64,000 bases of DNA from a virus. Under the pieces are notes generated by a model. It saw only the letters and a program-made list of their open reading frames with translations. It made no database searches and was not told the origin of the DNA. The DNA lies in the IMG/VR virus record IMGVR_UViG_3300006868_000018, positions 1 through 64,000 of that record, one strand, 5' to 3'. Position 1 is the first letter of the stretch. Each line of letters starts with the position of its first letter. Below are positions 47,287 through 51,468 of this stretch, in pieces. A program made the translations under genes and the position numbers.

Positions 47287-47540
47287 CGATACTACTTCGT
47301 GACACTGAGGTAGACGAAAGTAATCCTTACACCGTAGAGGAACGTAAGGCAAACATCATACTCGAACTTGCAAAAGAAGGGTATGAACACCATAAAGACT
47401 TTGTGATAATCGCTGTACCTAACATCACCCATATCACCTATGGTCGGGATGTTGGATACACGATTGAGCAGGAAGATCTGGGGGAAGAGGTTGAGTCAAT
47501 CTCCGCAACCAAGATACGTCAACTGGAACTAGGTCTTTAG
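47181..47540 (+). CDS. Short HxGH nucleotidyltransferase
   Basis: 119 residues. 'QLLGRFQPWHQGHTKLF' (HxGH at 18-21) and 'ISATKIR' (107-113) define the cytidylyltransferase/NMN-adenylyltransferase fold. Shorter than NadM-type enzymes. Paired with the APS-kinase-like gene by a long overlap; ATP-sulfurylase-like or NAD-related roles are both possible. Ends 3 nt into the convergent tape measure gene. Confidence 0.7.
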   Translation: MDRLKPTTQLLGRFQPWHQGHTKLFERALSKTGQVAILLRDTEVDESNPYTVEERKANIILELAKEGYEHHKDFVIIAVPNITHITYGRDVGYTIEQEDLGEEVESISATKIRQLELGL

Positions 47541-49840
47541 GTTATAGGTAATGCGCCCGCCTGATTGTTCGTCAAGAAGGCGGCGTTTACATCCCACACA
47601 CTTGGAATGACTGCCGCTTGAGTACTGTTATTATTGACTTGTGTTGACGAAGAAGACCCACCAACGTTAGTCTGCATAATAATAGGATTACCACCACCCG
47701 CACCCATATTCCCTGCATTTGCAAGTTGAGTTCCCGCCATGGTTCTTGATGTTGTGCCAGGCGCTTGTGGAGAACCTGGCGCTGGTATACCTCTCGCGTT
47801 CATTGATGCCAATCGTTCTCTTCGGTATTCAGCCGTTCCTTCTTGAGTGCCTTTAGACACATGCATGTGATCCATGTGACCACCAGTTCTCCACATCACA
47901 CTATAACCTGCGGTTTCTAATTTATCGCGTAGTACATCGAAGACCGCAGCCTGTTCGGGATTGTCTGCCTCAACATAACGTTCATCATTAGGACCGACAA
48001 AGTTAATATCTAATGCGTCACCCCTATAGTGTCTGGAGTTTTCACCATGTGTTCCAACTTCACCAAATGCCTCGTGGCCAGATACATGTAGTCCTTTTCC
48101 CTGCAACCATTCACCCAAAGCAACAATATCGTCTGATGGTGGTAAACCTGACATGGGTTCTTCTGGTTCTTGACCGGATGTCCCTAATTGAGGGCGAGGT
48201 CGGTTACGAGTCCTACGTGAGGCTGTCTGAGGTCTCTCAGGCGGAGGAGGAGGTGGTCGAGTTTCGGTATCTACTGCATCATTAGTCTCTGGTGGATTAT
48301 CTCTCATTGCGGCAGTATCAGTTTCATCATCCCACCAATCCGTCAATGCATCCCATGCATCTGAAAATATATTGCTTACCCAATTTTTAATATCTTCCCA
48401 AAGTTGGGTAGCTGAATCCACCATACTTCCCCATTTGTCGGGTTCATTTTCCCACCAGTCAATTACTGCATCATAGGCGCCCATAAACGACTCACCTATT
48501 CTGCCCGGAATTCCCATAAGATAATCAAATGTCTCTGATGCATACGTAAATAGGGATTCTTTAAATGCGGTCATTGTCTCATCCAACCACGCGAAGAGAC
48601 TAGGGAGAACGTCAGTGAATACGTAGGTCAGACCTCCCCATATCCCCTTCAATCCCCACTTAACCATGTCTGCGAGATTCATGAACATGGTCTGTGCAAA
48701 TTGACCCATCCAAGGTATGAACTGGGTGAAGATATCTTTCAACGCTTCGATTGGTGAACTGAATAGTTTACGAACCCAATCAAATATGGATGCTATCATT
48801 CCACTAATACCGCCAGGCATTAGTTCGTTGATTCTATCCGTAACAGAACCAAGACCAATCTTGTCCAGTATCCACTTCATTCCGTCTTGCAGTAAATCAC
48901 CAATAGTACCGAAGAAACCAACGAACACACCTTTGAGACCTTCCCAAGTTGCACTTAGAATTCTGGTAAAGATGTTCATATCAGATTCGGCGGTTCTTTG
49001 CCAGTCACCCAAGAATCCGGTGAAGAAGTCGAAGAGTGAAATAATAATTTGAATAGGCCAAAGAAGTTTGGTGAATACACCTTTCACCAAAGACATGATC
49101 TTATTACCGCCAGCCTTGAAAAGATCATCACCAACACCAATGGTAGCCTTAAGTGTGTCTCCTAGAAAACCAAATATTTTTCCAAAAAAACCAAACACTT
49201 TTTGGACGATAGAGTTTGTGAACGAACCAAGTTTGGATGCATTCCACCATTTGATAATCGCATTGAATGGTCTTGCTATGAAACCAAATATCTTCCCTAT
49301 ATTAGAAACCATTCTTTCGGCAAAATTCATTTTCTTGAATTTACCGTTGGCCTCTCTAAGGTTGTATCTTAATGATCCATCTAGGGCTTTGAAGAAACCA
49401 CCTCTAAACGCTTTGTAGAAATTTGTTATAGATCTCTGGAGACCTTTCGTTAGATTCGTTATACCAGCTACAGAAAATAGTCTAGAAAACGCCAGTTTAA
49501 CAGCACCGAAAAACCGTTGCACCATGTCTTTGATTCTTCTTACGGTCTCGCCTATCACAGCGCCAAGACCCAAAAGGATACCACTAAAGGATTTGTCTAA
49601 TTTTATTTCAGGTGCTTTGAAAATAGGTGCTTTTTCTTTTTTCTTGTCTCGTCGATCTTCTTCGTTCTGCAAACGATCCTGTTTTATCTCTGCGAGAATC
49701 TCACGCATAGTCTTATTGAGATCAGAGGTATTCTTCTCTGTCCCTTCTTGACTTCTTTGGAGCGCTTGGTTACGGTTATTATTTTCTTGACGCATCAAGT
49801 CAATAACATTACCCAAACCACCTATTGTTGCTTCTGCCAT
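47537..49840 (-). CDS. Tail tape measure-like protein with M15-type peptidase domain
   Basis: 767 residues. Residues ~80-490 are repeated hydrophobic amphipathic helices rich in Phe, Trp and Gly, typical of tape measure proteins. A Pro/Arg-rich linker follows, then a peptidase-like domain with H604 and D611 ('SRHYRGDALDIN') and H658/H660 ('GHMDHMHVS'), the M15/VanY zinc set. It would set tail length and open peptidoglycan at infection. It lies immediately downstream of a tail-chaperone frameshift pair, as tape measure genes do. In T4, gp29 fills this role. Confidence 0.75.
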   Translation of the reverse strand: MAEATIGGLGNVIDLMRQENNNRNQALQRSQEGTEKNTSDLNKTMREILAEIKQDRLQNEEDRRDKKKEKAPIFKAPEIKLDKSFSGILLGLGAVIGETVRRIKDMVQRFFGAVKLAFSRLFSVAGITNLTKGLQRSITNFYKAFRGGFFKALDGSLRYNLREANGKFKKMNFAERMVSNIGKIFGFIARPFNAIIKWWNASKLGSFTNSIVQKVFGFFGKIFGFLGDTLKATIGVGDDLFKAGGNKIMSLVKGVFTKLLWPIQIIISLFDFFTGFLGDWQRTAESDMNIFTRILSATWEGLKGVFVGFFGTIGDLLQDGMKWILDKIGLGSVTDRINELMPGGISGMIASIFDWVRKLFSSPIEALKDIFTQFIPWMGQFAQTMFMNLADMVKWGLKGIWGGLTYVFTDVLPSLFAWLDETMTAFKESLFTYASETFDYLMGIPGRIGESFMGAYDAVIDWWENEPDKWGSMVDSATQLWEDIKNWVSNIFSDAWDALTDWWDDETDTAAMRDNPPETNDAVDTETRPPPPPPERPQTASRRTRNRPRPQLGTSGQEPEEPMSGLPPSDDIVALGEWLQGKGLHVSGHEAFGEVGTHGENSRHYRGDALDINFVGPNDERYVEADNPEQAAVFDVLRDKLETAGYSVMWRTGGHMDHMHVSKGTQEGTAEYRRERLASMNARGIPAPGSPQAPGTTSRTMAGTQLANAGNMGAGGGNPIIMQTNVGGSSSSTQVNNNSTQAAVIPSVWDVNAAFLTNNQAGALPIT

Positions 49841-49844
49841 TGGT

Positions 49845-50041
49845 TTATCTCATTTTGGATTCTTGTTGTCTACGTTCATTCTCTTCTTTAATCCACTCAA
49901 CCAATAATGTAACATAAATTTCCCTTTCCCATGGCATCATCATTTCAAGTTCTGTTAGACTGTAATGATGATGTTGCATTAATGAAAAGTTGGTCTTAAA
50001 ATAATTGACCAAATTATCATGAGAAAGGTTTATGATAAAAA
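49845..50041 (-). CDS. -1 frameshift extension of the gp26-like tail chaperone
   Basis: 63 codons ('LMQHHHYSLTELEMMMPWER' within) that are read only if ribosomes slip -1 at the heptamer 50036-50042. An internal ATG at 49982 could alternatively start a 45-residue protein, and a GTG at 50084 a 79-residue one. The combined product would be 297 residues. The position between gp26-like and tape measure genes equals that of the lambda gpT extension. Confidence 0.65.
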
Positions 50042-50057
50042 ATCCGACATTCCCCTT
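50014..50057 (-). other. Programmed -1 ribosomal frameshift signal
   Basis: On the minus strand: Shine-Dalgarno-like AAGGGG (50057-50052), 9-nt gap, slippery heptamer T TTT TTA (50042-50036) in the gp26-like frame, and a 7-bp stem TTATCAT/ATGATAA (50038-50032 with 50020-50014). This is the same three-part layout as E. coli dnaX, although the stem begins within the heptamer instead of after a spacer. Confidence 0.65.
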
Positions 50058-50737
50058 AACATCTGTTTGTTTTCTTCCCCACACTTATTACAGGTATATT
50101 CTGCATTGTGTCTCAGTGCGGGTAGACTCTCAAGGTAGTCTGCCAGTTTCTTAAACTGACCCTGCGTCATTGACTCAAGAAACTCATTGATCTCTGTCTT
50201 GGAAACTTCGTCCGCCTCGATCCTTTCGTCTCCTGTGATGACGGCCTGAATACACGCACCAACCATAGCGAATCCAATTTCAATTTCCTTTCCGGTGAAA
50301 TTGACTTTACTGACATGTTCGTACATTGGGTATCTCATTTCAACACTAACACCGTCACTCAGTTCAATAACATTTTCGGTATTGGGTGCTTCTACTTTAA
50401 CGGAGGAGATGTCTATCTCATACTCGTTCTGTGCATCACATGATTCACATCTCAACAAAATAGTAGATACCTCACCAACTGACTTTGACCTAATCTGAGT
50501 GAACAGATACTCAATGTCAAAGGTTGTCAACTTCTTTCCCTGAAAACCTTCACTCGTGATACACGCATCGATTGTATCTACAATCGCACGTAGTGCCTGT
50601 TTCTGGTCTTGAGTCTCCATTGCCATCATCAAGACCTTTTCTTCTTTAACCAAGTAAGGTCTGAATGAAACTTTTTTCCCCGTCGAGGGAATCGTACATT
50701 CATACGATGGACTGGTGTTTAACTTTGGTAATGCCAT
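50030..50737 (-). CDS. 26: Tail/baseplate chaperone, T4 gp26-like (T4_baseplate family)
   Basis: 235 residues. 'MALPKLNTSPSYECTIPSTG' and 'FRPYLVKEEKVLMMAMETQD' match the T4 gp26-type baseplate family. Two CxxC pairs, 'CESC' and 'CNKC', probably bind zinc. It stops just after a slippery site that leads into the overlapping 63-codon extension, so it probably corresponds to a gpG-type tape-measure chaperone. Confidence 0.78.
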   Translation of the reverse strand: MALPKLNTSPSYECTIPSTGKKVSFRPYLVKEEKVLMMAMETQDQKQALRAIVDTIDACITSEGFQGKKLTTFDIEYLFTQIRSKSVGEVSTILLRCESCDAQNEYEIDISSVKVEAPNTENVIELSDGVSVEMRYPMYEHVSKVNFTGKEIEIGFAMVGACIQAVITGDERIEADEVSKTEINEFLESMTQGQFKKLADYLESLPALRHNAEYTCNKCGEENKQMLRGMSDFLS

Positions 50738-50760: not shown

Positions 50761-51468
50761 TTAAAATACTCTATCAAGTATCCCTGATAGAATTGAACCA
50801 CCAAAACCGCTTGTTGGTCCGTCTGCTTCTTTTGACCGCCAGTCTCTATAAGACAACTGTACGGTAAACTCCGTAATCTGATCAGTCTGATCGCCCCCTA
50901 ACTGTATCGCATTGACAGTGACCGGAAACGCCTCAAGTAATTTTATGTGACGAATAACCGCAGCGTCTTTTCCAAAACCGAAGTCAATCTCACCCTGTTG
51001 GAAGTCTGGGTTACCGTCAAAAATCCTCGCACGGATCGATGAGGGTATACTATCTAGGAACCCTAATTGTTTCTTAAATAGACTAAACGCATACCCTTTC
51101 TGAAGTTGTTTGATGTCGATGTCCTGAACGTAATCTTTGTAATATTGTATTTGATTTGATTCCTGATCGTAACACGCCTTCATCCACTCATCGAAGTAGG
51201 ATGTAATTTTGTGATCGTTCATGACATAGAAGGTTAAGTTCAAATCTACGGTTGCGAACCCGTTGACAACTTTTCTAAGAACTGTACCTACCTGTTGATC
51301 CTGTGTCATCATCTGTCTGCCAGGCAGTTCTGTTGATTTACAGATGACGTTAATGTCTCTCGAACTCATACCAAACTTACTGGGTAGGACAATCTCGAAC
51401 ATGTTCGACATTGCGAACCCTTCGCTCTTACTCGCGGCCGCCTTGAGTTCTTCTATACTAGTAGCCAT
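50761..51468 (-). CDS. Tail tube-like baseplate protein (gp54/gp19-type)
   Basis: 235 residues. 'MFEIVLPSKFGMSSRDINVI' and 'CKSTELPGRQMMTQDQQVGT' match the T4 tube fold shared by gp19, gp48 and gp54. With gp48 encoded at 52.6 kb and no other tube candidate nearby, gp54 (tube initiator) is my best guess, gp19 the alternative. Overlaps the gp2-like gene by 11 nt. Confidence 0.7.
   Translation of the reverse strand: MATSIEELKAAASKSEGFAMSNMFEIVLPSKFGMSSRDINVICKSTELPGRQMMTQDQQVGTVLRKVVNGFATVDLNLTFYVMNDHKITSYFDEWMKACYDQESNQIQYYKDYVQDIDIKQLQKGYAFSLFKKQLGFLDSIPSSIRARIFDGNPDFQQGEIDFGFGKDAAVIRHIKLLEAFPVTVNAIQLGGDQTDQITEFTVQLSYRDWRSKEADGPTSGFGGSILSGILDRVF

Follow-up and report, generated by a model that had tools for sequence, protein, structure and literature searches.

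A putative -1 frameshift signal at the end of the gp26-like tail assembly chaperone gene of T4-like phages

In phage lambda a -1 slip at the site G GGA AAG, close to the 3' end of the first gene, connects the tail assembly genes G and GT. The -1 cassette of Escherichia coli dnaX combines an upstream Shine-Dalgarno (SD)-like block with the in-phase heptamer A AAA AAG. For T4-like phages, Vladimirov, Gautam and Davidson are said to have described in 2022 a slip that is conserved in several groups, and T4 itself reportedly uses genes 26 and 51.

That study (Virology 566:9-15) is cited in the PRFect paper (PMC10885494) for some T4-like phages that have, in place of a slip, a short gene and a fused long one. 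A passage of the paper on phage Adele (PMC12846349) refers to it when speaking of poly-T -1 signals in the TAC-N genes of T4-like phages. Since both papers cite this work on T4-like chaperones, the T4 hub genes had, as far as can be told from the citing passages, already been linked to the G/GT scheme in print. The initial annotation of the DNA studied here had known of no described case in gp26 of T4-like phages, and on this point it has to be corrected, because the chaperones and their poly-T slip signals had been published according to the same passages. The Adele paper also describes, in the part that concerns its own locus, the tail assembly chaperone locus of Pseudomonas phage Adele (Vandenendeviridae/Andersonviridae), where a -1 slip is placed on a T run in the 3' end of TAC-N and the tape measure gene follows. 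This locus differs from ours in its motif, GTTTTT, and in the phage families concerned.

The locus described here lies in a stretch of 64,000 nucleotides of viral DNA (IMG/VR record IMGVR_UViG_3300006868_000018, positions 1 to 64,000), which we refer to as the window. It carries the same slip signal as the published T4-like chaperones and represents a further, uncultivated member; in what the citing papers say of the published cases we found no mechanistic difference. As in lambda G/GT and HK97 gp13, the gp26-like gene precedes the tape measure gene, and the predicted N-terminal fold of its product matches the HK97 structure 2ob9. Unlike the lambda and HK97 proteins, the gp26-like protein is larger (235 residues) and has a second domain and CxxC pairs; its slip site is T TTT TTA, compared with the G GGA AAG of lambda. 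With dnaX the locus shares an SD-like block and an in-phase heptamer, whereas the heptamer itself, T TTT TTA, is different and no conserved downstream stem was found among 171 representative loci.

Organization of the chaperone locus

The gp26-like gene, which would encode the short tail assembly chaperone (TAC-N) of 235 residues, occupies positions 50737..50030 on the minus strand. Its product matches the Pfam family T4_baseplate (PF12322) with an E-value of 5.4e-60 and 203.2 bits (curated cut-off 24.5), and phrog_150 with an E-value of 2.6e-63. The 3' end of the open reading frame (ORF) reads GAT TTT TTA TCA TAA and contains the slippery heptamer T TTT TTA in phase (50042..50036, minus strand), with one sense codon between heptamer and stop. 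A -1 slip at this site would lead into a frame of 63 codons (50036..49848) that ends with a stop codon at 49847-49845, so that this second part spans 49845..50036 on the minus strand and the predicted joined product has 234 + 63 = 297 residues. The -1 frame is gp51-like and a candidate TAC-C, as it matches phrog_634, “baseplate hub assembly catalyst” (gp51), with an E-value of 3.6e-27, and also the C-terminus of phrog_150 (E 4.7e-5). A possible stimulator, the SD-like block AAGGGG (50057-50052, minus strand), is located 9 nt 5' of the heptamer. The initial annotation had pointed out the gene end, the in-phase heptamer, the 63-codon frame, the 297-residue product and the AAGGGG block, and the window sequence bears out all of them.

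According to PHROG matches in the window, the chaperone gene pair sits between a tail tube-like and a tape measure-like gene, all on the minus strand. The tail tube-like gene lies directly 5' (50761..51468; phrog_45, tail tube, E 2.9e-34), and its counterpart in relatives is also annotated as tube initiator gp54. Directly 3' follows the tape measure gene (49840..47537; phrog_4200, E 4.7e-14; phrog_58, E 6.4e-14), and only 4 bases separate its ORF from the end of the -1 frame at 49845. The tape measure-like protein has, in addition, a weak match to Peptidase_M15_4 close to its C-terminus (residues 597-662, E 0.026).

Conservation of the slip site and of the -1 frame

Heptamers of the pattern X XXY YYZ stand in phase within the last 9 codons of 2 of the 144 window ORFs of at least 100 codons (87 + 57, taken from stop to stop and with spurious ones counted). 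Of these two, only the gp26-like ORF opens into a long -1 frame (63 codons vs 7).

For the comparison with other loci we assembled 262 records, comprising the best 80, 32, the best 80 and 44 matches, 24 phage records, the window and the window's own record (L093). The slip site served as bait in none of the homologue searches. However, 19 of the 24 phage records were found by a search with the -1 frame and are therefore selected for having a relative of it, whereas the other 5 came from a search with gp26. Single-protein scans with the gp26 of Vibrio and Rhizobium phages and of one cyanophage yielded 1-3 loci each. A gp26-profile ORF was obtained from 260 of the 262 records; two records with a partial gp26 in which no such ORF was found (L124, L125) were dropped. 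In L137 the best profile ORF is gp51, so that its gp26 end lies outside the heptamer count. Most of the 44 matches from a genome collection (L218-L261) stand on short contigs of metagenome-assembled genomes whose labels include Euryarchaeota, Flavobacteria and Chloroflexi, and these are probably phage contigs that were binned with hosts; one match, L227, comes from a Nonlabens isolate, on a contig of 188 kb.

Comparison of these loci revealed that 253 of the 260 have an in-phase T TTT TTN among the last 15 codons of the gp26-profile ORF. After removal of duplicates 211 distinct loci were left, and 171 of these were kept as representatives, while loci with less than 300 nt around the site or with at least 85% identity to an earlier one were taken out. 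In L248, which has two in-phase T runs, the last one was used. The heptamer is kept in all 171 representatives (less than 85% nucleotide identity to each other), as T TTT TTC (114), TTTTTTT (39), TTTTTTA (11) or TTTTTTG (7). Upstream in the same genes, T TTT TTN is found in phase at only 6 of 33,858 codon positions. Since the representatives share ancestry and are not independent, we give these counts without a probability. Aeromonas phage 65, Sinorhizobium phage phiM9 and S-SSM7 also carry the usual heptamer. Judged by these sequence comparisons, the T TTT TTA slip signal is more than a chance match. Seven loci are without the heptamer, namely four of the T4 group (L087, L088, L133, L137), two Ackermannviridae-like Vibrio phages (L130, L134) and an N-masked contig (L247).

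The -1 frame is conserved along with the heptamer, and the alignment of homologous loci that the initial annotation had proposed as a check thus came out in favor of the slip. Among the 253 heptamer loci, 243 have a complete -1 frame of at least 56 codons and 10 are cut by the contig end. A complete -1 frame, 56-69 codons long, is present in 169 representatives; in the remaining 2 it runs off the contig, with 55 open codons in one and 62 in the other. Before the site, conservation is lowest at the third codon position of frame 0, and after it at the third position of frame -1, and this shift means that the constraint changes frame at the slip site.

Alternative explanations and relatives without the heptamer

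In T4, Aes012 and avDM2, gp26 and gp51 (248-249 residues) are encoded on opposite strands, while in POP12 they share a strand with gp51 first. When gp26 and the -1 frame are joined in one profile, its alignment with gp51 of all four phages extends over the junction. In a set of 12 sequences, T4 gp51 (64-245) was matched to positions 75-282 of the joined profile with an E-value of 4.7e-12, and a profile of the -1 frame found gp51 of Aes012 (E 2.5e-12, best domain 204-249) and of T4 (E 2.2e-6). T4 gp26, in turn, matches the first part of the joined profile. From these alignments T4 gp51 therefore looks like the fused long form and T4 gp26 like the short form, and many sequences support that gp26 and gp51, the “baseplate hub” proteins of T4, are the tail assembly chaperones of the T4 branch. 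Near the end of gp26, T4 reads GAG TTC TTT and POP12 GAG TTT TTA; both are without a downstream -1 frame, and in both Phe-Phe/Leu is kept and the heptamer is gone. These two gp26 ends are a natural control against a constraint that comes from the protein alone.

An independent gene (gp51) in the -1 frame, which would need no slip and would use either a start of its own or stop-start coupling, would account for the separate ORF that is called there in 15 of the 20 annotated heptamer records. This count leaves out L129, which has no annotation, and L130, which has no heptamer. The annotated start overlaps the gp26 stop in Vibrio phages V05 and D527, Rhizobium phages AF3 and I1_9, S-CRM01 and phiM9. 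In the window, moreover, a GTG at 50084 lies upstream in the -1 frame and would give an ORF of 79 residues, so that an independent start could not be dismissed from the window by itself. The initial annotation had held that the -1 frame has no obligate start of its own; this is incomplete, as the window is among the 10 representatives with an upstream start. The other 161 of the 171 have no ATG, GTG or TTG upstream in this frame. In 54 representatives a standard start is missing both upstream and from the 10 codons that follow the slip. The initial annotation had named a conserved independent start with a ribosome site as evidence against a slip; among the representatives the -1 frame has no general start of its own. 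The heptamer marks the point from which the -1 frame is conserved, ahead of the commonest available ATG, and T TTT TTN is still present even where the gp26 stop is overlapped by an ATG (Vibrio V05 and D527, Rhizobium AF3). Furthermore, 5 of the 20 annotated heptamer records leave the -1 frame unannotated, and T4 gp51 is a fused protein of 249 residues, not one of 60 residues. We regard an independent gene as very improbable. The annotations themselves have a gap here, since none of the 20 records joins the two frames; 15 list the second part as a separate gene and 5 omit it.

The T run could also owe its conservation solely to a need for Phe-Phe/Leu at the end of gp26, and T4 and POP12 do keep this motif where no -1 frame follows. 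However, what is kept in these two phages are the amino acids and not the heptamer. In the 171 representatives, which have the -1 frame, the last base of the codon 5' of the heptamer is T without exception. This codon encodes Ser (AGT or TCT), Asp, Asn, Ala or, once, Phe, and it changes among AGT, TCT, GAT, AAT and GCT while the final T stays. For Ser, Asp, Asn and Ala codons further upstream in these genes, the last base is T in 5267 of 8225 cases (64%). Likewise, the first Phe codon of the heptamer is TTT in 171 of 171, compared with 1146 of 1606 upstream Phe codons (71%). Of the 260 loci, 7 are without the heptamer, and the -1 frame is kept in just two of these, the Ackermannviridae-like loci, where the amino acids differ. 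A constraint from the protein alone is thus very improbable in our judgment. An error of sequencing or assembly that splits a single gene is the least credible explanation, to a degree that we consider negligible. One-base errors are common in T runs, but the same phase recurs in the 253 loci, which come from many metagenomes and from isolates, and the stop codon follows 0 or 1 codon past the heptamer in 166 of the 171 representatives. All three explanations were tested and found weak.

The explanation we favor, and consider very likely, is a programmed -1 frameshift on T TTT TTA that would yield a short and a long chaperone of the lambda G/GT type. Conservation of the heptamer and of the -1 frame, the fused gp51 of T4 and an N-terminal domain that resembles the HK97 chaperone (see below) all support such a lambda-like arrangement, which the initial annotation had suggested. 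Ribosomes that do not slip would make the 235-residue, T4 gp26-like TAC-N, and a -1 slip, presumably at some lower rate, would produce the 297-residue TAC-NC. The long form would add a helical C-terminal domain that corresponds to the C-terminal end of T4 gp51. If the analogy to lambda gpG/gpGT holds, both forms would bind the tape measure protein and recruit it in assembly of the tail and baseplate hub. A joined tryptic peptide of the long form would span GMSDFLIINLSHD. Most of the T4-like phages sampled probably make their long form by slipping, a reading that the compared sequences support.

In the Ackermannviridae-like branch the -1 frame is kept without T TTT TTN in 4 of 4 loci (Vibrio phages VAP7 and K483, Serratia phage 2050H1 and Dickeya phage phiDP10.3). 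Here gp26 ends with CAC GTT TTT CGC TAA in VAP7, CTT TTC AAG TAA in K483, CAG GTT TTC ATC TGA in 2050H1 and ATT TTC ATT TAA in phiDP10.3. An ATG overlaps the stop in three of the four loci and none does in the other. These four loci (L130, L134, L262 and L263) thus combine a gp51-like -1 frame with N NTT TTY, which may be a different slip site, or else the frame may be read by stop-start coupling. The sequence G GTT TTC, the slip site of T7 gene 10, occurs exactly in Serratia 2050H1. Loss of the heptamer with both frames intact, which the initial annotation had named as evidence against the slip, does occur in all four of these loci, but it was met only in this distant branch. Because these relatives keep both frames without the heptamer, a slip on T TTT TTN is not the sole route. 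As a tentative scheme, to which we give somewhat less than even weight, the route to the long form may have changed stepwise among T4-like phages. Most groups sampled would use the T TTT TTN slip and the Ackermannviridae a slip on N NTT TTY or stop-start coupling. In the T4 group a separate fused gp51 would have come to stand beside gp26, with the heptamer lost and the Phe-Phe/Leu end kept in T4 and POP12.

Predicted fold and candidate stimulators

The AF2 model of the gp26-like protein of the window has a pLDDT of 93.8. Its residues 1-87 were matched to the HK97 tail assembly chaperone (2ob9) with a VIA Z of 7.7 over 86 aligned residues, a value in the range (under 8) that can reflect a common arrangement. 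The N-terminal part was also matched to 3fgx (Z 8.1) and to the PICI protein 5ir0 (Z 4.7), and with the next row at 3.3, two of the top three rows stand well above the rest. Foldseek gave a probability of 0.96 for the match to 2ob9, with a weak E-value of 0.31. The prediction supports an HK97 gp13-type TAC-N fold for the N-terminal domain, although a shared fold does not show function. The part encoded by the -1 frame is predicted as three helices (pLDDT 85.6). Comparison of this C-terminal model with a viral fold library gave no significant match, the top row being gp51 of Acinetobacter phage ZZ1 (E 1.9), and nothing useful was found in sequence searches against solved structures. Two CxxC pairs (CESC and CNKC) are present in the gp26-like protein, with weak matches to Pfam zinc-ribbon families, and possibly form a metal site.

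We compared the candidate stimulators across the 171 representatives. Pairing with the anti-SD sequence has a mean of -6.4 kcal/mol at the place of the SD-like block, compared with -2.4 kcal/mol at control places. Synonymous shuffling gives -5.2 kcal/mol for the same place, and the real sequence is stronger in 77% of the 171. The SD-like signal thus appears modestly stronger than its synonymous shuffles.

A 7-bp stem had been proposed in the initial annotation as a further element. The inverted repeat TTATCAT/ATGATAA (50038-50032 / 50020-50014, minus strand) is indeed present and pairs perfectly, but it is not conserved: all seven pairs are kept in only 4 of the 171 representatives. It is A+T-rich, with -2.9 kcal/mol over a stretch of 36 nt, and overlaps the heptamer with its 5' arm. 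We therefore rejected it as a stimulator.

Downstream of the slip site, the 60 nt past the heptamer are more structured than four control regions, with a mean z of -1.33 in the 171 loci compared with -0.13 to -0.37 in the controls, and z is below -2 in 32% of the downstream regions compared with 5-11% of the controls. A common downstream RNA fold was sought, and the consensus fold of the 171 ungapped sequences was empty. For the window, a weak candidate stimulator 3' of the slip site is a predicted hairpin with a TTGGTC/GACCAA core (49982..50020, minus strand), as it comes out of the minimum free energy (MFE) fold for L001, whose sequence is identical. Some related viral contigs, among them L185, L203 and L216, have a long predicted stem that the window is without, the hairpin of the window being weak and located further on. 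This stem begins 4 nt past the heptamer, has an MFE of -19.7 to -23.2 kcal/mol over 70 nt and is placed as would be expected of a frameshift stimulator.
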